From Natronomonas halophila (lineage in GTDB: Archaea; Halobacteriota; Halobacteria; Halobacteriales; Haloarculaceae): DNA of 64,000 nucleotides. The position numbers and the translations under genes are program-made. Where the stretch lies: positions 1,674,001 to 1,738,000 of the forward strand of contig NZ_CP058334.1 in NCBI RefSeq assembly GCF_013391085.1, written 5' to 3'. A model generated the notes under the pieces. That model ran no database searches, was not told where the DNA came from, and saw only the letters and a program-made list of their open reading frames with translations. Shown piece by piece: positions 8,096 through 25,396 of this stretch (the first letter of the stretch is position 1; each line of letters starts with the position of its first letter).

Positions 8096-8303
8096 AGAAA
8101 GAGCATACGCCGAGCGTAGTCGTTCGAGAGAGCAAAGCTCTCTCGTGATGACGAAAGACGCCGAGAGCGTCTTTCGAACCACGAGGCGTTTCACCGCGCG
8201 AGCGAAGCGAGCGCGGGACCAAGGCCCGACCGCAGGGAGGGCCGCCGTGTCTTTTTCATCGAAGTTTTTGCCGGCGCGCGAAGCGCGCCGTGCAAAAAGT
8301 TCG
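8096..8303 (-). repeat. Dispersed hairpin element, copy 1
   Basis: One of four copies in the window. On the minus strand it starts CGAACTTTTTGCACGG, forms a long hairpin (8260-8303, stem GGCGCGC closed by TTC), continues CAAAAACTTCGATGAAAAAG at about 8250-8269, then GGTCGGGCCTTGGTCCCGCG, a second hairpin with CCGCGC/GCGCGG arms, two further perfect hairpins (CGAAAGACGC/GCGTCTTTCG and CGAGAGAGC/GCTCTCTCG), and ends near a GTATGCTCTTTC tail beside the phosphoesterase stop codon. T-runs occur in both directions, so it may also end transcripts. No ORF is credible inside. Confidence 0.8.
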
Positions 8304-8343
8304 GTTCGAAGCCCTTTTGCCCGATAGCACCGCAAAACCGAGT

Positions 8344-8541
8344 ATGGACCGGGATGCGGCCGTCGAAGCCGTCGTCGCGTTCGCGGGCGTCGCGTTGCTC
8401 GCGGGCGTCATCATGTGGATCGGGACCGCCTACACGAGCGATGGGCTCACCGCGAACGGCGGCATCGCCCTCGTCGCGGCTATCGGTTTCTTCATCGTCT
8501 TCATGTCCGTCGTCGGCCTCGGACTCTCGCGACGCTACTAG
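8344..8541 (+). CDS. Small two-helix membrane protein
   Basis: 65 residues: a charged N-terminus (MDRDAAVEA), a hydrophobic helix at about residues 8-28, a short polar loop, and a second helix at about 40-60 ending SRRY, so both ends are probably cytoplasmic. I do not recognise a named family; similar short membrane proteins are common in haloarchaea. Its stop codon and that of priL on the other strand share the four bases CTAG at 8538-8541. ATG 8344 was chosen since the upstream in-frame region belongs to the hairpin element spacer. Confidence 0.65.
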   Translation: MDRDAAVEAVVAFAGVALLAGVIMWIGTAYTSDGLTANGGIALVAAIGFFIVFMSVVGLGLSRRY

Positions 8542-9599
8542 GCGCGCCAGTCGGTGACCCGATTGTCGGGCGCCTGCTGGAGCCGTTTTTCGTAATAGGA
8601 AAGCGGATGCTGAATCGTCTCGCAGGTGTCGTCCTTGTCGACGCAGTCGCCGTACTCGTCCATCACGGCACACGACGGCGGCGCCAGAGCACTGCCGTCC
8701 TCGTCGTCGAGGCGTTCGACTTGGGCCTGAACCCGTTCGGCGGGCGTTCCTGAGACGTCACACAATTCGACGATTTCCTCGCCGTCGAGGCCGGTACTGA
8801 CGAGGAACGACACGAGCGCGAACCGGGAGTGGTCCGGCAGCGCCTCGCCCTCGCGGATGCGGGTCAGCAGGTCGCGCATGCAGGGCGGAAAGAGGCCCGG
8901 AACGACCGCGTCGAAGGCCATCGGCGGGTCGAGGTCCGAGATGTCCTGTCGAATCGCCGTGAGTTCGTCGTCGAGCGGGTCGGCGATGGGCTCCGGTACC
9001 GCGAGGGGTAGGCCCTCCGCAACGCGGTGGTGAATCGCCTCCCGAAGCAGGGTGTACAGTTCCGCGCGGGCGACGGGCACGCGGCCGTCATCGAGCGGAC
9101 GACCGACGAGTCGCCAGCGCTCGTCGTCGAGGTCGCCGGCGAGTTCGAGGTAGGCAGTCACCTCGACGCTGAATCGGCCGTTTCCGGTCGGTTCGACGCG
9201 TCCCGAGAGGCCGAAATCCGCGAGCAGGCGCTCCAACGTGAGCCGGCTTTCGGCGGTGCTTTTGAGTTCGATATCGGCCTCGAAATCCTCGACGAACCGC
9301 TCGCGGGCGGTGGCGGCCTCGGCGGCGGCGTACTTCTCCGTGGCGCCCGGCACGTCCAAAAGCGAAACGAGCACGCGAGCGACCGGGTAGGAGAGCAGTT
9401 CCGCGCGGTCGCTCCAGAGTTGCGACTCCTCGGCTTCGGTGGTCCCCTCTAAAAGCGCGCGCTGGACGCGCTCTTGGCCGCGTTCGACGGCCGGCCCGCC
9501 ACGCTGGACGAGCGCGGCGAGGTCGACGTCCGCGGCTTCGACCGCATCGCGAGAGGCGTCGAGGAAGGGATAGCGAGCGTGGAGCCGCTCCATACCCAC
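8538..9599 (-). CDS. priL: DNA primase large subunit PriL
   Basis: 353 residues. PriL is the regulatory subunit of the archaeal/eukaryotic-type primase: it holds a C-terminal 4Fe-4S domain and helps PriS start and size RNA primers. Four cysteines suitable for the cluster are visible in the C-terminal third: FPPCMRDLL, APPSCAVMDEYGDC and DDTCETIQHP (Cys near 242, 311, 320, 327), followed by the family motif HPLSYYEKR. The helical N-terminal domain begins at LHARYPFLDASRDA. An internal ATG two codons on (MERL) is an alternative start. PriS is not in the window. It reads towards the small membrane protein gene with overlapping stop codons. Confidence 0.92.
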   Translation of the reverse strand: MGMERLHARYPFLDASRDAVEAADVDLAALVQRGGPAVERGQERVQRALLEGTTEAEESQLWSDRAELLSYPVARVLVSLLDVPGATEKYAAAEAATARERFVEDFEADIELKSTAESRLTLERLLADFGLSGRVEPTGNGRFSVEVTAYLELAGDLDDERWRLVGRPLDDGRVPVARAELYTLLREAIHHRVAEGLPLAVPEPIADPLDDELTAIRQDISDLDPPMAFDAVVPGLFPPCMRDLLTRIREGEALPDHSRFALVSFLVSTGLDGEEIVELCDVSGTPAERVQAQVERLDDEDGSALAPPSCAVMDEYGDCVDKDDTCETIQHPLSYYEKRLQQAPDNRVTDWRA

Positions 9600-9689
9600 C
9601 GGTATCCGGGCGGTGCCGATAAACGCACCGACCCTGAGTTTCTGACTTTTCTGATGATTTATAAATCGTGCTTAGCGACTTCCTGACCA

Positions 9690-10250
9690 CAAACGACCGG
9701 AAAGCCCTCGGCCCGCTGGCGGTCCCTGAGCGGCATATCCTCCCTTCGGTCGGATAGGGGCCGCTCAGGGACTATATAAACGCCACTGGGCCTCGCCCTT
9801 TCATTCCACCAGGCAGTACCGCAACCGCACCACACGCCTCCCCAACCGACTCCCTCGCTTCGCTCGGTCGTCCCTCGCGCGCTGGCTGGCCTGACCGCCG
9901 CTCACGAGATGTTTGCGGCGGTCGGCCAGCGCGCGCCATTTATAAGAATCACCTGGCCGGGAGCGAGGGGTTGCCCCCGGCGACCCCTCGCGACCCGGGG
10001 AAGGGCAGGCACGGTGCGGTTCCCTGGCGTCCTCGTGAGCGACCGAAGGGAGCGAACGAGGGCTCAGGAGAGCTTGCTCTCCTGGTGGAATCGAAGGGCG
10101 AGGGCGGGTACGGGAAGCACGACCCCTAAAGCACCGAAGCGAACGAAGTGAGCGAGGCGCGCAGAGTGGGTCGCGCGACCGTAGCCGCCCGAGGGCTTCG
10201 GAGGTCGCGGTTCCGTTTGAGTAGCGGTTTTCAAAACAGGAGAGTCGACA
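9690..10250. repeat. Gene-free, heavily palindromic intergenic block with paired inverted repeats
   Basis: No credible ORF between priL (start 9599) and the gene at 10287. It holds a perfect 11-bp stem at 9724-9770 with a nested ATCC/GGAT; a TATA-like TATATAAA at 9773-9780; a 23-base motif CCTCGCCCTT..ATTCCACCAGG at 9791-9813 whose inverted partner is at 10081-10103 (21 of 23 bases match); a long hairpin at 9876-9935 with arms of about 20 bp and a 5-base bulge; a TTTATAA at 9939-9945; a 13-bp hairpin at 9963-9991; and a perfect 7-bp hairpin GGAGAGC-TT-GCTCTCC at 10067-10082 abutting the right repeat. It may encode structured RNA or be two copies of a mobile repeat in opposite orientation. Confidence 0.65.
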
Positions 10251-10286
10251 CGCCTATACTCGCGCCCATCCAGCAACCCAACATCC

Positions 10287-10874
10287 GTGCGTCTCAGGTA
10301 TCGCTGTCCGGGCTGTCGGACGACCAGCAACCTCCACGACCCTGGGTGTGAGTTCGAGGGCACCGACCGGACCCACATCGAGAAGGCCTACACCGACATC
10401 CTGAGCCCGCTGTCCGCCCGCAACTACGACGACGAGGACGCCCTCCGAGAGGACGTCCCGGACCGCTGGAGCGGCCTCCACGGGGCGGTCCTCTCCCGTC
10501 TCGAAAGCGACCAGCGGGTCGTCGACGAGGACGGCGAACTCCAGTTGCTGCCGCCAGAGGAATACAAGGAGCGCGTCTCCAAGCCCACGTTCGAGCCGCT
10601 GAAGACGATTTATGAGAAGGGCAGCGTGCCGGGCGCGCACGACAACTCCGTTTTCGCCATAATCGCCTTCTACGAGATGGTCGGCCTCTCGTGGGAAGAG
10701 GCCCGCGAGAACACCGTCGACTGGCTCCACGAGTCGGGGACGTGGGACCGCGGCGGCTTCGAGGAGGCCTCACCCGAGGAACTGGTCGACTCGAAGAAGC
10801 ACGTCTACGAGCAGGGCTACGGCTGGAAGGAGAAGGCCCAGGCCGCGAAGGCGGTCATCGACCGCCATCTGTAG
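10287..10874 (+). CDS. Conserved-looking hypothetical protein with N-terminal zinc-binding cysteines
   Basis: 195 residues starting at a GTG (no in-frame ATG fits before the first Cys). The N-terminus YRCPGCRTTSNLHDPGCEF has a CxxC plus a third Cys and a His that could bind zinc. The rest is mixed alpha/beta and acidic, with a helix-rich middle (FEPLKTIYEKGSVPGAHDN, AIIAFYEMVGLSWEEAREN) and a Lys-rich end (YGWKEKAQAAKAVIDRHL) suggesting nucleic-acid or protein contact. I do not recognise the function. It follows the palindromic block and is divergent from priL. Confidence 0.7.
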   Translation: MRLRYRCPGCRTTSNLHDPGCEFEGTDRTHIEKAYTDILSPLSARNYDDEDALREDVPDRWSGLHGAVLSRLESDQRVVDEDGELQLLPPEEYKERVSKPTFEPLKTIYEKGSVPGAHDNSVFAIIAFYEMVGLSWEEARENTVDWLHESGTWDRGGFEEASPEELVDSKKHVYEQGYGWKEKAQAAKAVIDRHL

Positions 10875-10901
10875 ACGAGTCCGGCAGTCTGCGGCTGTCG
10901 C

Positions 10902-11243
10902 TTAGTTCTGGTCTTCTTTCAGTCGCTGCATCCGCGTCTCGTATTCCTCGTCGGTCAACTCGCCGCGAGCGTAGGCCTGCCGGAGTTCCTCGATGGCTCG
11001 GTCGGCTTCGTCCCCGTCGGCGAGAGCCCGGTAGCCGGCGTAGGCCAGCACCGCGATGACGACGAGCGGCAGGAGACTCGACACCAGCCACCAGCCGCCG
11101 GTGCCCATCATCCCGCCGTCCCACATCCCGGTGTGCATCCCGCCGATGGTCGGCATCATGACTAGCATCATCAGGACCGGCAGCAGCAGCAGGGCTGCGC
11201 CGATGATGAGGACGAGCCGCAGCAGTCGGTCATCGTTACTCAT
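10902..11243 (-). CDS. Membrane protein with C-terminal SHOCT domain
   Basis: 113 residues from the ATG at 11243. Two hydrophobic helices (about residues 8-32 and 52-72) flank a Gly/Met-rich stretch (MPTIGGMHTGMWDGGMMGTG). The cytoplasmic tail DRAIEELRQAYARGELTDEEY is a typical SHOCT motif, a short oligomerisation/binding domain. Function unknown; SHOCT proteins are often small membrane-associated accessory factors. A further in-frame ATG nine codons upstream (11270) is possible but adds a poorly conserved-looking peptide. Confidence 0.75.
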   Translation of the reverse strand: MSNDDRLLRLVLIIGAALLLLPVLMMLVMMPTIGGMHTGMWDGGMMGTGGWWLVSSLLPLVVIAVLAYAGYRALADGDEADRAIEELRQAYARGELTDEEYETRMQRLKEDQN

Positions 11244-11382
11244 ACCTAACACTACGGGGGCCGTATTCATGCCCGTTTTCCCTCTGAATCCATCGTAAAT
11301 ACTGCCCTACGCTTGCAATTCGAAGGCGAATCCGGGCTATCTACCCCGAGAACGAATCTTCAGATGGTCGCCCGGTCTGTCG

Positions 11383-11775
11383 TTACCGATTCGGCTTCCA
11401 GCGGTATCGCGTCGTGTGCGTGCCGTCGAAGCGCGGTCCCGGCCCGTGCTCGTCGAACTCCGTCTCCTCGACGGCCGTCCGCGTCTCCTCGTCGTGTTCC
11501 GGTACCAGGAGTTCGACGTCCATCCCCTCGCGGTCCGCAAAGCGGGTCGGCTCCTCCAGCAGGCGCCGGTGGATGGCGGGGGTTTCGCCTTCCAGTTGGG
11601 TGACGTGGACGGTCCGCCCCTGAGCGTCGAAACTGACGAAGCCCTGCACCGCCCCGTCTTCCTCCGCGACCCGAACCGTCCGGTCGTGGACGAGGTTCCG
11701 CATCACGTCGGTCGGTGCGCCGGTCAGGGTCGCCAGTCGCTCGGCGTCGGCCTCGACGGCGTCCCGTATCTCCAT
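11383..11775 (-). CDS. GNAT-like N-acetyltransferase domain protein
   Basis: 130 residues starting at the ATG at 11775 (MEIRDAVEADAERLATLTG), a start typical of GNAT proteins (beta1-alpha1). The beta strands VRVAEEDGAVQGFVSFDAQG and RTVHVTQLEG correspond to beta2-beta4, but the acetyl-CoA pyrophosphate loop (Q/RxxGxG/A) is weak: only LEGETPAIHRRLLEEP is found there. It may therefore be a degenerate or non-catalytic member. Monocistronic, divergent from the aspartate kinase. An upstream in-frame ATG at 11790 is an alternative. Confidence 0.6.
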   Translation of the reverse strand: MEIRDAVEADAERLATLTGAPTDVMRNLVHDRTVRVAEEDGAVQGFVSFDAQGRTVHVTQLEGETPAIHRRLLEEPTRFADREGMDVELLVPEHDEETRTAVEETEFDEHGPGPRFDGTHTTRYRWKPNR

Positions 11776-11941
11776 GCTATGCGGTACCATTTTCTCACGG
11801 ATTAATGTTCCCGTCAGGCAGAGGCGTCTCGCTGGCCACGACCCCCGGCCCGCCTCGGCGCAAAAATCGCCGGAGACGGCGGTGTGGCAAGCTTCCCATA
11901 GATGGACAGGGTTATCTCCCGGGACCAGTTACCCGACGGGT

Positions 11942-11983
11942 ATGAGCCACCACACCGTACCGCAGGTGATTGCATGCGCGTAG
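11942..11983 (+). other. 13-codon ORF overlapping the aspartate kinase start
   Basis: ATG at 11942 opens the peptide MSHHTVPQVIACA, ending in TAG at 11981-11983, inside the first codons of the aspartate kinase gene in another frame. It could be a leader peptide or chance. There is no supporting Shine-Dalgarno motif. Confidence 0.2.
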
Positions 11984-13158
11984 TCGCCAAGTTCGGCGGC
12001 ACCAGCCTCGGCAACGGCGACCGGGTCAACCGTGCTGCCGACTCCATCGCCGCCGCCGTCAACGAGGGCCACGAAGTCGCCGTCGTCGCCTCGGCGATGG
12101 GGTCGACCACCGACTTCCTGCTCGACGCCATCACCTTCGAGGCCGACGAATCCGACGAGGCCGAAATCGTCTCGATGGGCGAACGCACCTCCGTCCGGAT
12201 GCTGAAAGCCGCCCTCGGCGCCCGCGGCATCGACGCCAAGTTCCTCGAACCCGGCACCGACGAATGGCCGGTCATCACCGACGAACACGGCGAGGTCGAC
12301 GTCGAGGAGACCCAGCGCCGCGCGAAGAAGCTCGCGGCCGACATGGCCGCCGAAGGCTACGTCCCCGTCATCACCGGCTTCCTCGCACAGGACCACGCCG
12401 GCAACGTCACCACGCTCGGCCGCGGCGGCTCCGACACCACCGCCGTCATGATGGGCAACTACATGAACGCCGACGAGGTCGTCATCGTCACCGACGTCGA
12501 AGGCGTCATGACCGGCGACCCCCGTGTCGTCGAGGGCGCACGCAACGTCGGCGAAATCACCGTCGACGAACTCCGTAACCTCTCCTTCCGCGGTGCCGAA
12601 GTCGTCGCCCCCTCCGCCCTCTCGTATAAGACCGGCAAGATGAGCGTTCGCGTCGTCCACTACCAGCACGGCGACCTCCTCTCGGGTGGCACCTCCATCG
12701 AGGGCCAGTTCGAGAACCTCATCGACCTCCGGGAGGAACCGCTGGCCTGCCTCACCGTCGCCGGCCGCGCCATCCGCAACACCCCGGGCATCCTCTCGGA
12801 CCTCTCGGACGCCATGGCGGATTCGGACCTCAACATCGACGCCGTCTCCAGCGGCATGGATTCGGTCACCTTCTACGTCGACGCCGAAGTCGCCGAACGC
12901 GCCGAGAACGTCCTCCATCAGGCCGTCATCGACGTCGAGGAACTCTCCAGCGTCACCGTCGACGACAACGTCGCCGTCATCCGAATCACCGGCGGCGAAC
13001 TCCCCACCCAGTCGGGTATCCTCGAAGACATCATCGTCGCTCTCAGCGAGGAACACATCACGATTCAGGACCTCATCACCAGCGCCACCTCCGTCTCCGT
13101 CTTCATCGACTGGGACGACCGCGAAGCCGCGCTCAAACAAATCCAAAACGCCGTCTAA
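11974..13158 (+). CDS. Aspartate kinase with C-terminal ACT domains
   Basis: 394 residues. Phosphorylates L-aspartate with ATP, the first committed step towards threonine, methionine, isoleucine and lysine. Motifs: MRVVAKFGGTSLGN at the N-terminus (nucleotide-binding KFGGTS), the aspartate-site region LGRGGSDTTAVMMGN near residue 150, and VTDVEGVMTGDPRVV. Two ACT repeats follow (from about 265: LACLTVAGRAIRNTPGILSD, and from about 335: VAVIRITGGELPTQSGILED), so feedback inhibition by end-product amino acids is expected. ATG 11974 fits the family; an ATG at 11902 adds 24 unlikely residues. Hairpin element copy 2 begins 5 bases after the stop. Threonine synthase lies 19 kb away; homoserine dehydrogenase is not in the window. 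Confidence 0.93.
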   Translation: MRVVAKFGGTSLGNGDRVNRAADSIAAAVNEGHEVAVVASAMGSTTDFLLDAITFEADESDEAEIVSMGERTSVRMLKAALGARGIDAKFLEPGTDEWPVITDEHGEVDVEETQRRAKKLAADMAAEGYVPVITGFLAQDHAGNVTTLGRGGSDTTAVMMGNYMNADEVVIVTDVEGVMTGDPRVVEGARNVGEITVDELRNLSFRGAEVVAPSALSYKTGKMSVRVVHYQHGDLLSGGTSIEGQFENLIDLREEPLACLTVAGRAIRNTPGILSDLSDAMADSDLNIDAVSSGMDSVTFYVDAEVAERAENVLHQAVIDVEELSSVTVDDNVAVIRITGGELPTQSGILEDIIVALSEEHITIQDLITSATSVSVFIDWDDREAALKQIQNAV

Positions 13159-13162
13159 ACCA

Positions 13163-13330
13163 CGAACTTTTTCCACGGGTCGGCTTCGCCGACCCGGCAA
13201 AAACTTCGATGAAAAAGACACTGCGGGCCTCCCTGCAGTCGGCCCTTGGTCCCGCGCCTCCCTGCGGTCGGCGCGGCGAACCGCGCGAGCGAAGCGAGCG
13301 CGGATGCTGGCGACTATATTTAAATTAATC
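13163..13330 (+). repeat. Dispersed hairpin element, copy 2
   Basis: Starts CGAACTTTTT five bases after the aspartate kinase stop. First hairpin 13163-13208 has stem GGGTCGGC/GCCGACCC with TTC loop, followed by CAAAAACTTCGATGAAAAAG and the conserved GCGGGCCTCCC and GTCGGCCCTTGGTCCCGCGC blocks, a second hairpin CCGCGCC/GGCGCGG, a third CCGCGC/GCGCGG, then GCGGATGCT and an AT-rich end (TATATTTAAATTAAT). The first-stem sequence differs from copies 1 and 3 while base pairing is kept. Confidence 0.85.
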
Positions 13331-19880: not shown

Positions 19881-19944
19881 GAAAAAGCGGCCGTTTTTTC
19901 CGGAAGAGGTGAGACGCGGGGAGGCTTGACCGAATGGAGGATGG

Positions 19945-19950
19945 TATATG
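19945..19950 (+). promoter_or_regulatory. TATA-like box for the siroheme reductase gene
   Basis: TATATG 23-28 bases before the ATG at 19973. Confidence 0.45.
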
Positions 19951-19972
19951 TGCAGGACTATTGCCTGTGGAT

Positions 19973-21721
19973 ATGCCGAGCAAGGTCGAAGGCTGGAAAG
20001 ACGAGGTCTACGGTGCGGAAATCCGGGACCACCTCATGGAGTTCGCCGAAGAGGGATGGAGTTCCATCCCCGAGGACGAACACGACGCCTGGTTCGAGCG
20101 GTTCAAATGGTGGGGTCTGTACCACCAGCGGAAGGGCCAGGAATCCTACTTCATGATGCGTATCGGGACGCCGAACGGTCGCCTGACGCCCGAACAGCTT
20201 CGGGTCGTCGGCGAAATCGCCAACGAGTACGCCACCGGGCCGGTCGAAAACCCGGAGTTCGGCGGCGCCTACTGTGACTGGACGACCCGGCAGTCCATCC
20301 AACTGCACTGGATTCAACTGCAGGACATTCCGGACATCTTCGAGAAACTCGAAGAACACGATCTCTCTACTATTCAGGCCTGCGGTGACTCCTGGCGGAA
20401 CATCGTCGGCTCGCCGATGGCCGGCAAGGACGCGAAGGAACACATCAACGCGTGGCCGGTCATCAAGGAGCTCAATGACACTTTCAAGGGCAACGACGAC
20501 CACTCCAACCTCCCCCGGAAGTGGAAGGTCGCCGTCACCGGCGACACCCGCGGCTCCGGACAGGCCGAAATCAACGACCTCGGCTTCGAGCCCGCCACCA
20601 AGGAACTCGACGGCGAGGAAGTCAAGGGCTTCAACGTGAAGGTCGGCGGCGGCCTCTCCCGCAAGGAACCCCGCATGGCCCGCAGCATCGACGTCTTCGT
20701 CACCGAGGACACCATCGCCGACGTCGCCGGCGGCATCTCCGCGCTCTTCCGCGACCACGGCGACCGCGAGGACCGCTTCAACGCCCGCATCAAGTTCCTC
20801 GTCGACGAGTGGGGTACCGACAAGCTCCGCCGCGTCCTCCAGGAGGACTACGTCGACTTCGAACTCCCCACCGCGGGCGAGGACCTCCGGGAGCAGTACA
20901 CCTACAACTCCGGTCGCAACGACGAAATCGGCGACTACGTCGGCGTCCACGAACAGGTCGACGGCGACTACTTCGTCGGCCTCTCCGTCCTCGTCGGCCG
21001 AATGGGTGCCGACGACGTCATCGAACTCGCCGACCTCGCCGAGGAGTACGGCTCCGATATCGTCGGCATCACCCAGCGACAGAACCTCATCGTCTCCGAC
21101 ATCGCCGAGGAGGACCTCGACGACTTCCTCGACGAGCCGCTGCTGGAGACCTACTCGCCGGACCCCCACCCGTTCATGCGGGGCTCCATCGCCTGTACCG
21201 GCACCGAGTACTGTTCGCTCTCCATCGTCGAGACGAAAAACCGGATGGTCCGCTACGCCCGCTGGCTCAAGAACAACGTCGAACTGCCCGAGGGCGTCAA
21301 CGACTTCCACATCCACCTGTCCGGCTGTACCGCATCCTGCGCTCAGCCCCAGATCGCCGACATCTCCCTGCGTGGCATGAAGACCCGCAAGGACGGCGAA
21401 CCCGTCGAGGCCTTCGACATCGGCCTCGGTGGCGGCCTCGGGGAGAACCCCCGCTTCGCCGACTGGATCGAGATGCGCGTCGCCGCCGACGAGGTGCCCG
21501 GCTACATCGAGAACCTGCTCGAAATCTACGACGAAGAGAGCAACGAGGGCGAATCCTTCCGCGACTACATCGAGCGCCACGAGGAGGAGTACCTCAACGG
21601 CCTCGCCGAACCCGAGGAAACCTCCTACGAGGACCCCTACCTCGGCAACACGAAGATGACGTGGTACCCCTACGCCGAGGACACCGAGATGGACGCGTCG
21701 CCGGCGCCGGCTGACGACTAA
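19973..21721 (+). CDS. Ferredoxin-type nitrite/sulfite reductase (siroheme, 4Fe-4S)
   Basis: 582 residues, two ferredoxin-like half domains and two siroheme-reductase domains, the layout of assimilatory ferredoxin-nitrite and sulfite reductases, which carry out six-electron reduction of nitrite to ammonia or sulfite to sulfide. The four cluster/siroheme cysteines are present: ACTGTEYCSLSIVETKN (about residue 408) and HLSGCTASCAQPQIAD (about 450). The ATG at 19973 (MPSKVEGWKDEVYG) is preferred; an upstream in-frame ATG at 19934 adds an unrelated peptide and would overlap the TATA box. No nitrate reductase or nitrate transporter is adjacent, so nitrite versus sulfite cannot be settled. Hairpin element copy 3 starts at the base after the stop. 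Confidence 0.88.
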   Translation: MPSKVEGWKDEVYGAEIRDHLMEFAEEGWSSIPEDEHDAWFERFKWWGLYHQRKGQESYFMMRIGTPNGRLTPEQLRVVGEIANEYATGPVENPEFGGAYCDWTTRQSIQLHWIQLQDIPDIFEKLEEHDLSTIQACGDSWRNIVGSPMAGKDAKEHINAWPVIKELNDTFKGNDDHSNLPRKWKVAVTGDTRGSGQAEINDLGFEPATKELDGEEVKGFNVKVGGGLSRKEPRMARSIDVFVTEDTIADVAGGISALFRDHGDREDRFNARIKFLVDEWGTDKLRRVLQEDYVDFELPTAGEDLREQYTYNSGRNDEIGDYVGVHEQVDGDYFVGLSVLVGRMGADDVIELADLAEEYGSDIVGITQRQNLIVSDIAEEDLDDFLDEPLLETYSPDPHPFMRGSIACTGTEYCSLSIVETKNRMVRYARWLKNNVELPEGVNDFHIHLSGCTASCAQPQIADISLRGMKTRKDGEPVEAFDIGLGGGLGENPRFADWIEMRVAADEVPGYIENLLEIYDEESNEGESFRDYIERHEEEYLNGLAEPEETSYEDPYLGNTKMTWYPYAEDTEMDASPAPADD

Positions 21722-21960
21722 CGAACTTTTTGCACGGCGCGGCGAAGCCGCGCCGGCAAAAACTTCGATGAAAAAGACACTGCGGGCCTCCCTCGCCTCA
21801 CGGCTCACTTCGTTCGCCGTTCGGCATACCGAGACTCCTCCTTCGGTCGGAGTCTCGCAACCGGTCGGCCCTTGGTCCCGCGCCTCACTTCGTTCGGCGC
21901 GGTGGAACCGCTCGCGCCCTGCGGGCGCTCGCGGATGCTTTCTTTATACTCTGTTTAAAT
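21722..21960 (+). repeat. Dispersed hairpin element, copy 3 (longest)
   Basis: Begins CGAACTTTTTGCACGG immediately after the reductase stop codon. First hairpin 21722-21767 has stem GGCGCGGC/GCCGCGCC with GAA loop, then CAAAAACTTCGATGAAAAAG and GACACTGCGGGCCTCCC as in copy 2. An extra insertion carries hairpin CGAGACTCC/GGAGTCTCG; then come GGTCGGCCCTTGGTCCCGCG, hairpin CCGCGCC/GGCGCGG, hairpin GCGCCC/GGGCGC, GCGGATGCTTTCTTTAT and an AT-rich end. The remaining 21961-22078 contains no ORF; it holds the upstream region of the aminopeptidase gene. Confidence 0.85.
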
Positions 21961-22111: not shown

Positions 22112-23224
22112 ATGGACGAGCGCGTACGCGAACACGCGGAGGTACTGGTCGAGTGGAGCGCGCGAACCGAGGAAGGCGACGACGTGGTATTGTCTGTCGC
22201 CGAGGACGCCCACGAACTCGGCGTTGCGGTCGCCGAGAAACTCGGCGAGGTCGGCGCGAACGTCGTCACGACCTACGGCTCTGCCGAGGTCTCGCGGGCC
22301 TACCTGCAGGGCCACGACGGGGACTTCGAGGAGAACCCCGCCCACGAACTCGCGCTCTACGAGAACGCCGACTCGGTGCTGCGAATCGGCGGCGGACGGA
22401 ACACCACCGCGATGGCCGACGTCGACAGCGACGTCCGGCAGGCCTACTCGAAGGCCCGCGAAGAGGTCCGTGAGGCCCGAATGGACACCGACTGGGTGTC
22501 GACGGTCCACCCGACCCGCGCGCTCGCACAGCAGGCCAGCATGGCCTACGAGGAGTATCAGGACTTCGTCTACGACGCCGTCCTGCGCGACTGGGAGTCG
22601 CTGGCCGAGAAGATGGCCCATATGAAGGAGATTCTCGACGAGGGCGAAGAGGTCCGTATCGTCAAGGAACGGGAGGACCAGCCGAAGACGGACCTCACGA
22701 TGTCCATCGAGGGTCGCACCGCGGTCAACTCCGCGGCGTCGGTCGCCTACGACTCCCATAACCTCCCGTCGGGTGAGGTCTTCACGGCGCCCTACGCCAC
22801 CGAGGGCGAGGTGTTCTTCGACGTGCCGATGACCATCAACGCCCGTCGCGTGCGGAACGCACACCTCACCTTCGAGGACGGCGAAGTCGTCGACTTCTCG
22901 GCGGAGACGGGCGAGGATGAACTTGAGACCATCCTGAACACCGACGAGGGCGCCCGACGGTTGGGAGAGTTGGGCATCGGGATGAACCGCGGCATCGACC
23001 GCTTTACGGACAACATCCTCTTCGACGAGAAGATGGGCGATACCGTCCACATGGCTGTCGGCCGCGCCTACGACGCCAACATGCCGGAAGGCGAGGAGGG
23101 CAACCAGTCGGCCGTCCACGTCGACATGATTACGGACATGTCCGAAGCCTCGCGCATGGAAGTCGACGGTGAGGTCGTCCAGCGGAACGGGACCTTCCGA
23201 TTCGAGGACGGTTTCGGGGGATAG
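22112..23224 (+). CDS. Aminopeptidase, peptidase family M29
   Basis: 370 residues, normal for M29 (thermophilic aminopeptidases AmpS/PepS, dinuclear metal enzymes that remove N-terminal residues). Recognised segments: NLPSGEVFTAPYATEGE (metal-binding Glu), ELGIGMNRGI, DEKMGDTVHMAVG (metal His/Asp) and NQSAVHVDMITDM. Soluble and cytoplasmic. It starts at ATG 22112 behind a strong TATA box. Its last 12 codons and stop (23186-23224) are duplicated at 23321-23359, on the far side of hairpin element copy 4, which suggests rearrangement at the gene's 3' end. Confidence 0.92.
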   Translation: MDERVREHAEVLVEWSARTEEGDDVVLSVAEDAHELGVAVAEKLGEVGANVVTTYGSAEVSRAYLQGHDGDFEENPAHELALYENADSVLRIGGGRNTTAMADVDSDVRQAYSKAREEVREARMDTDWVSTVHPTRALAQQASMAYEEYQDFVYDAVLRDWESLAEKMAHMKEILDEGEEVRIVKEREDQPKTDLTMSIEGRTAVNSAASVAYDSHNLPSGEVFTAPYATEGEVFFDVPMTINARRVRNAHLTFEDGEVVDFSAETGEDELETILNTDEGARRLGELGIGMNRGIDRFTDNILFDEKMGDTVHMAVGRAYDANMPEGEEGNQSAVHVDMITDMSEASRMEVDGEVVQRNGTFRFEDGFGG

Positions 23225-23359
23225 TACCGCACCGAGCGCAGCGAGGTGCGGCTTTTTCATCGAAGTTTTTCAAGGAGGGTGAGCGAGTGAAGCGAGCGAA
23301 CCCGACGCAGAAAAAGTTCGAATGGCACCTTCCGATTCGAGGACGGATTCGAGGGATAG
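23186..23359 (+). repeat. 39-base direct repeat of the aminopeptidase gene 3' end flanking the element
   Basis: Bases 23186-23224 (last codons plus TAG) and 23321-23359 match at 35 of 39 positions by eye; the second copy also reads GTFRFEDGFEG-stop-like. Between them are 96 bases of hairpin element copy 4. The rest of the gap, 23360-23532, contains AT-rich sequence and no recognisable gene. Confidence 0.8.
23225..23320 (-). repeat. Dispersed hairpin element, copy 4 (degenerate)
   Basis: On the minus strand it starts CGAACTTTTT (23311-23320) and carries AAAAACTTCGATGAAAAAG at about 23252-23270, like copies 1-3, but the first stem is degraded (GGGTTCGCTCGC opposite GCTCACCC) and the distal modules are replaced by a hairpin CCGCACC/GGTGCGG. 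It lies exactly between the two 39-base copies of the aminopeptidase 3' end. Confidence 0.7.
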
Positions 23360-25001: not shown

Positions 25002-25396
25002 GGCTGAGGATAGTAAGCCCCCTTCTGTTTCTACCCGGCATTCGGCTGAGCACCCGTCTGTGTGTCCGGGCTACCTTAGTCGACGGGCTTGCACCGGCGA
25101 GGATTCGCCGTTCCATCCGTTCCCACTCGTCAGCGTGGCCTCGAGAGGCCACGTCATCCCTCGACGGGTTAGCTCCCTTCCCTTACGGGTCGGTTCGCGC
25201 GCTTGCGGCGGAACCGCAAGCGCCATAGGCCGCCGATGGCGGCCCACGCGTCTCATCGGTCGGAGTGGGCGGTCTCGTTTCTGTTCCAGAGCCAGCGGTC
25301 TCCCGCTCCGGGCTTGCGCCCGGTCACCTGCCCGGACGGTGGGGGGACTTTCCTCATGCCCGCATGTGCGGGCACGGGGACCGGGCATCCTCTTCC
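25002..25396 (-). ncRNA. rnpB: RNase P RNA (archaeal type A)
   Basis: The minus strand carries the conserved RNase P RNA blocks in order: GCGGGCATGAGGAAAGTCC at about 25350, GAACAGAAACGAGACCG near 25280, and at the 3' end GTAGAAACAGAAGGGGGCTT then ACTATCCTC. Terminal pairing GAGGAT (25387-25392) with ATCCTC (25006-25011) forms helix P1. Length about 395 bases fits halophile RNase P RNAs. It processes the 5' ends of pre-tRNAs with Pop5/Rpp proteins. A CTTAAG about 30 bases upstream may be the TATA element. Exact ends are estimates. Confidence 0.92.

Follow-up and report, generated by a model that had tools for sequence, protein, structure and literature searches.

A dispersed family of multi-hairpin elements anchored at stop codons in haloarchaea

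Hairpin elements and their gene neighbours in the window

The window, the whole 64,000-nucleotide stretch of the Natronomonas genome analysed here, holds four copies of a multi-hairpin element, all found at about the positions given in a preliminary description made from the sequence alone. Copies 1 and 4 lie on the minus strand, which corrects that description, and copies 2 and 3 on the plus strand. Read in its own direction, the element is a unit of 100-400 bp with four ordered modules: H1, the linker ATGAAAAAGACAC, H2, the block TTGGTCC, H3, and H4 with an ATGCT end. H1 comprises a 4-nt foot (4 bp when paired), a C.C mismatch, TTTTTGC/GCAAAAA, a GC-rich stem and a 3-nt loop, followed by the foot again; GGGCCTCCCTACGGTCGGCCC is an example of H2, H3 pairs CCGCGC with GCGCGG, and H4 pairs CCGC with GCGG before ATGCT. 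The stems and the TTC and GAA loops are as first described, and the TTGGTCC block, the CCGCGC/GCGCGG hairpin and the ATGCT end are borne out in copies 1-3.

Copy 1, drawn at first as 8096-8303, is a complete element that runs from about 8102 (AGCATACGCC) to 8303 on the minus strand, as established by direct reading and exact placement, with a covariance-model match at G000:C1:1682216-1682303. Its modules are H4 with a nested double-hairpin cassette (about 8102-8189), H3 (8194-8216), H2 (8223-8246), the linker, and H1 (8260-8303, minus strand), the last with a CGAA foot, the C.C mismatch, TTTTTGC/GCAAAAA, a GGCGCGC stem and a TTC loop. The hairpins of the cassette (8117-8189, minus strand) had been taken as private to this copy, a claim that does not hold: the cassette recurs in further copies and in further genomes and species (L092, L096, L101, L282, L293). 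Copy 2 (13163-13308, plus strand) is complete and lies 4 nt past the aspartate kinase stop (13158), with H1 at 13163-13208, H2 at 13223-13245, H3 at 13252-13276 and H4 with its ATGCT end at 13281-13308. Similarly, the complete copy 3 (21722-21939, plus strand) follows immediately 3' of the stop of the reductase gene (19934-21721); it consists of H1 (21722-21767), H2 with nested hairpins (about 21782-21878), H3 (21878-21902) and H4 with the ATGCT end (21908-21939). Copy 4 (23227-23320, minus strand), immediately behind the aminopeptidase stop (23224), does belong to the family, but as a divergent short form made of H1 and one 25-nt hairpin: the hairpin (23227-23251) is followed by CTTTTTCAT and by H1, from about 23261 to 23320. 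It is flanked by a 36-bp imperfect direct repeat of the upstream gene's 3' end, the first arm being the aminopeptidase 3' end including the stop (23189-23224, plus strand) and the second lying beyond the element (23324-23359, plus strand). A small ORF starting from ATGAAAAAG (MKKTRR...) was rejected, its reading frame being lost between copies that differ in H3 length. Over the window, Rfam recovered RNase P and one tRNA only, and no curated family at the elements; the archaeal RNase P RNA gene identified in this way (25002-25396, minus strand) served as a yardstick for G-U pairing.

Copy number, distribution and anchoring at stop codons

The hairpin elements form a large and real haloarchaeal family. 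In the host genome, a single contig of 3.21 Mb, the 19-mer core CTTTTTCATCGAAGTTTTT has 44 matches at up to 3 mismatches, against none for the reversed control, and a covariance model built on H1-linker-H2 gives 53, of which about 43 were read individually. There are thus some 43-53 copies here, rather than the four initially listed, and we put the family size at about 45-50. The model also returns 20-23 matches each in G001, G009 and G015 and 8-12 each in G010, G013, G016 and G018, and zero in G002, G003, G005, G011, G017 and G019. Three core-motif matches at 142-bp spacing were seen at G002:C1:2763330-2763634; the rest of that genome has almost none of the family. Across the class, the core motif is present in 155 of 391 haloarchaeal genomes and 47 of 86 genera, while the reversed-pattern control matched none of the 391.

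The strongest feature of the family, missed in the preliminary description, is its anchoring at stop codons. With gene context taken from a simple home-made codon-usage caller run on individual loci, so that single cases may be wrong, the H1 foot lies at -3 to +5 nt of a coding stop in 22 of 41 parsed copies, against 1.3% of random intergenic positions (P about 1e-30), and within 30 nt of one in 29 of 41, against 4.9%; on the H1 side, about 12 of the 41 have no stop inside 30 nt. Where the foot is GAAC or GAAA (11 copies), the start always falls -2 to +2 nt from the stop and in most cases takes in its last base or bases, and most CGAA copies behind a stop begin 0-4 nt after it. Six further copies start 14-19 nt past a stop; on their left, most of these carry an additional segment similar to CCCACGTTTTACAC. 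Some copies are oriented the opposite way behind a gene. The gaps that hold a copy are enriched in convergent ones (17 of 38, against 28 of 160 gaps without a copy; P 0.0009), and divergent gaps account for 3 of 38 against 48 of 160. Stop anchoring is seen again in G015 (10 of 17 copies) and G009 (6 of 11) and is absent from the 4 parsed copies of G018.

Site turnover, rearrangement and module exchange

Comparison of orthologous sites between species reveals a variable occupancy. At the site behind the gene with a host copy at 1629511, G015, G001 and G009 carry an element with a different foot, G010 carries another subtype and G018 is empty. The site behind the aspartate kinase gene (copy 2) holds another subtype in G018 and is empty in G015, G009, G001 and G010, in all four of which aspartate kinase directly faces the phosphoesterase that adjoins copy 1 in the window. 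Among the readable sites of the genus, the one behind the reductase gene (copy 3) has an element only in G018, of a divergent type and close behind the same stop. A same-layout relative, CTTTTTTCC...GCAAAAAACATTCAGAAAAAAGG...GCGGATGC, was observed at the orthologous site in Haloglomus halophilum (L129), directly behind the reductase stop. Some orthologous loci are thus empty, and others are filled or hold another subtype. Of the 17 parsed sites of G015, 6 are common to the host genome, far above chance, and 11 are unused by it. Together, these patterns indicate that sites are partly inherited or re-used and that subtypes turn over. The aminopeptidase 3' end is a recurrent, not a general, site: as a candidate class-wide hot spot it had the motif in none of 29 further orthologues examined. 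Three of these 29 (L333, L335, L336) have a different T-tract hairpin (TTTTTGGTGCAGATTTTTGCC...GGCAAAAAG) and a repeated gene 3' end behind the stop; because another hairpin at the same stop also comes with a repeated gene end, such duplication may not be special to this family.

Copies also coincide with larger changes. As regards REARRANGEMENT and duplication, comparison with five of five relatives (L305-L309) shows the block between copies 1 and 2 (8304-13162, or 8305-13167) inverted with respect to the adjoining phosphoesterase, and copies 1 and 2, in opposite orientations, mark its two ends. The block is thus a rearrangement with elements at both ends, and a simple inversion is not proven, given that collinearity is not apparent among the far neighbours. 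Several genera have the element between a gene and a repeat of that gene's 3' end, of 25-120 nt including the stop; gene end and element form tandem arrays in L258 and L264. Most stop-anchored copies have no flanking duplication, and flank alignments showed no clean short target duplications at them, the only repeats being those of gene ends, in the other class. To the right of several copies (L063, L074, L091, L093-L095, L097) stands a second, opposite-direction element (GTTAGCATCCGCCGAG...GGTTCC), which has the H4/ATGCT end common to the hairpin family and then a different body (TACGGCGCC...GTCGC); in G018 a related body (GGAAAATATGCGCGC) follows H1. The two families seem to swap modules. 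As for a driver, the presence of IS200/IS605 TnpA does not correlate with the element in a genus-wide search, and the host's single TnpA (2909290) has no element nearby.

Origin and possible role of the elements

Over 22 sequences, 98.6% of stem cells are paired, and stem changes are two-sided in 47 cells against 2 that are one-sided. The pairing values are unmatched by any of 500 shuffles, sliding the partner abolishes pairing, and RNAalifold on 23 full copies gives the same outcome; a stricter hairpin count (2 mismatches in 625 pairs) has rules that favour perfect stems and is not relied on. The stems thus do covary, as the preliminary description had claimed, every measure exceeding all 500 shuffles. 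The further step, from covariation to proof of selection on structure, fails for DNA palindromes, in which template switching also keeps the arms matched (PMC8794818). In copies folded singly, G-U accounts for 3.7% of pairs on one strand and 3.3% on the other, compared with 8.9% in random pieces of the window and 7.5% in its RNase P, and no G-U asymmetry between strands, as a sign of strand-specific RNA selection, was found. Template switching can make perfect stems and multi-base compensatory changes (PMC8794818). Because the arms are near-perfect, their changes two-sided and neither strand preferred, homogenisation at the DNA level, whether through template switching or through swapping of complete hairpin modules, appears to fit the arms better than selection on one transcript, though related copies are not independent events.

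Several explanations can be weighed against these data. The structured RNA first proposed, with stems held by selection on a transcript such as a small RNA or a protein-binding structure in a 3'-UTR, would account for the strong covariation, the conserved linker and the conserved internal mismatch, and the many copies directly behind genes would fall in their 3' ends; yet both strands have equally few G-U pairs, fewer than random pieces of the window do, two-sided changes come almost without one-sided intermediates, no Rfam family matches, and sequence and length differ freely among the stems, which also contain nested insertions. We therefore do not favour this reading and consider it improbable. 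Even more improbable, in our view, is a replication artefact: template switching would create and rewrite the palindromes at each gene end locally, and no sequence would be copied from site to site. That process can yield the perfect stems and compensatory changes (PMC8794818), and nested hairpins, tandem arrays of gene end and element, and rearrangement endpoints fit local instability, but it leaves unexplained why the same multi-module sequence of 100-150 bp stands behind dozens of unrelated genes with a fixed module order and a conserved linker.

A purely selfish non-autonomous mobile element of the MITE, PATE or REPIN kind would instead owe its position to an integration chemistry that targets gene 3' ends, the terminator-like sequence being incidental and the long gene-end repeats being target duplications. 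Dispersed, lineage-specific copy numbers from 0 to 53 within one genus speak for it, as do the empty sites, the nested cassettes, the 25-120 nt repeats of gene 3' ends that flank the element in many genera, and the 11 of 17 G015 copies at sites unused by the host genome. On the other hand, no transposase follows the element, neither the host's TnpA nor TnpA across the genus; most stop-anchored copies are not flanked by a duplication, the duplication length is too variable for known transposases, and the sites are not random, since 6 of 17 in G015 are common to the host genome. This reading is unlikely, if by no means far-fetched. The original suggestion of a non-autonomous mobile element thus holds partly: some of the copies are lineage-specific, orthologous sites are in some cases empty, different subtypes occupy the same site and copies lie at rearrangement ends, but no mobilising enzyme, clean short target duplication or same-species insertion polymorphism was found, and TnpA does not track the family. 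Integron attC sites, too, are conserved in structure and lie directly after stop codons. They were set aside, the copies here being dispersed single units behind core genes, without a cassette array.

Among known systems, REPs and BIMEs (including GTAG- and CGTC-tagged REPs and REPINs) are likewise dispersed, non-coding, palindromic and patchy between related genomes, and they combine hairpin modules as mosaics in intergenic positions near gene ends, as do H1-H4 and the nested cassettes here. Their unit is, however, short (20-40 nt) and carries a GTAG or CGTC tag, which is absent from the aligned haloarchaeal copies; these are 100-400 bp long, with four ordered modules, T5 tracts on both strands, a start exactly at stop codons and an end in ATGCT or similar. 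Unlike RAYT-mobilised REPs, the haloarchaeal element is neither linked to nor flanking a tyrosine transposase of the RAYT or TnpA type; CGTC REPs are likewise without a known transposase (PMC3733652). PATEs and SMRs of Haloquadratum walsbyi are transposase-free haloarchaeal repeats with palindromes and nested insertions in the parts of PMC3119063 considered here; there, PATEs have near-terminal palindromes common to IS605-type transposons, whereas our element has no observed IS605 link, as judged by the position of one TnpA locus, SMRs have terminal inverted repeats that our element as a whole lacks, and stop-codon anchoring is not among the features reported. In comparison with MITEs, the left end (H1 foot) and the right end (ATGCT) are not inverted repeats of each other, and no short duplication was seen, the repeats observed being long gene-end ones in one class. 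Haloarchaeal T-stretch terminators (PMC7237163) also place a T tract close behind a gene, and in some cases a hairpin ahead of the end, yet ordinary ones form no repeated sequence family, whereas the present element is copied as a module and has a T tract towards either side. Finally, template-switch palindromes in RNA genes (PMC8794818) have the same perfect arms and two-sided multi-base changes, but at single RNA loci, whereas here one multi-module sequence occupies dozens of sites. No description of the family was found in the open literature on haloarchaeal intergenic palindromes, MITEs, REPs and terminators. What was put forward as an undescribed system is apparently new in this sense, yet it falls within a known kind, the mosaic extragenic palindromic repeats, from which its stop-codon anchoring sets it apart.

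Overall, we favour a mosaic extragenic palindromic element, BIME/REP- or PATE-like, that acts as a bidirectional T-tract terminator and spreads by an unspecified route, a proposal about equally likely to be right or wrong. A T tract faces both directions, TTTTT after the stop on one strand and CTTTTTCATNNNNGTTTTT on the other. With the H1 foot at the stop or a few bases from it, a T5 tract would lie in the path of transcription from either side: from the forward side, TTTTT would be met within about 10 nt, straight after the stop, and from the reverse side the GC hairpins and then the opposite tract. Intergenic termination in Haloferax volcanii has a T stretch as its motif, which gave 95% termination in vivo, and a hairpin gave 59% (PMC7237163). 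The most likely function of the element is that of a terminator in both directions and a 3'-end module, and the preference for convergent gaps fits the two-way function predicted. What keeps its arms perfect would be template switching at the DNA level or a swap of entire hairpin modules among copies, and new copies would reach other stops by a non-autonomous or recombinational route. Against a terminator, about 12 of 41 copies lack a nearby stop on the H1 side, the multi-hairpin body exceeds the needs of a T-tract terminator, and stop anchoring could also reflect targeted insertion without function. A bolder version, which we hold tentatively as a doubtful possibility, is that a dedicated mechanism places this class-wide element exactly at gene 3' ends, making of it a set of mobile, interchangeable two-way terminators; on that view, placement would be at the stop codon itself or with a gene-end duplication that keeps the gene intact.

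If the terminator proposal is true, haloarchaea would carry a dispersed repeat that distributes transcription ends. This archaeal equivalent of BIMEs would differ from them in its tie to stop codons and would also give rise to inversions and to duplicated gene ends. The family is also a reminder that a DNA repeat whose stems covary strongly is not necessarily a selected RNA, since matching of the arms can be maintained at the DNA level, and it offers about 50 natural test sites within one genome.
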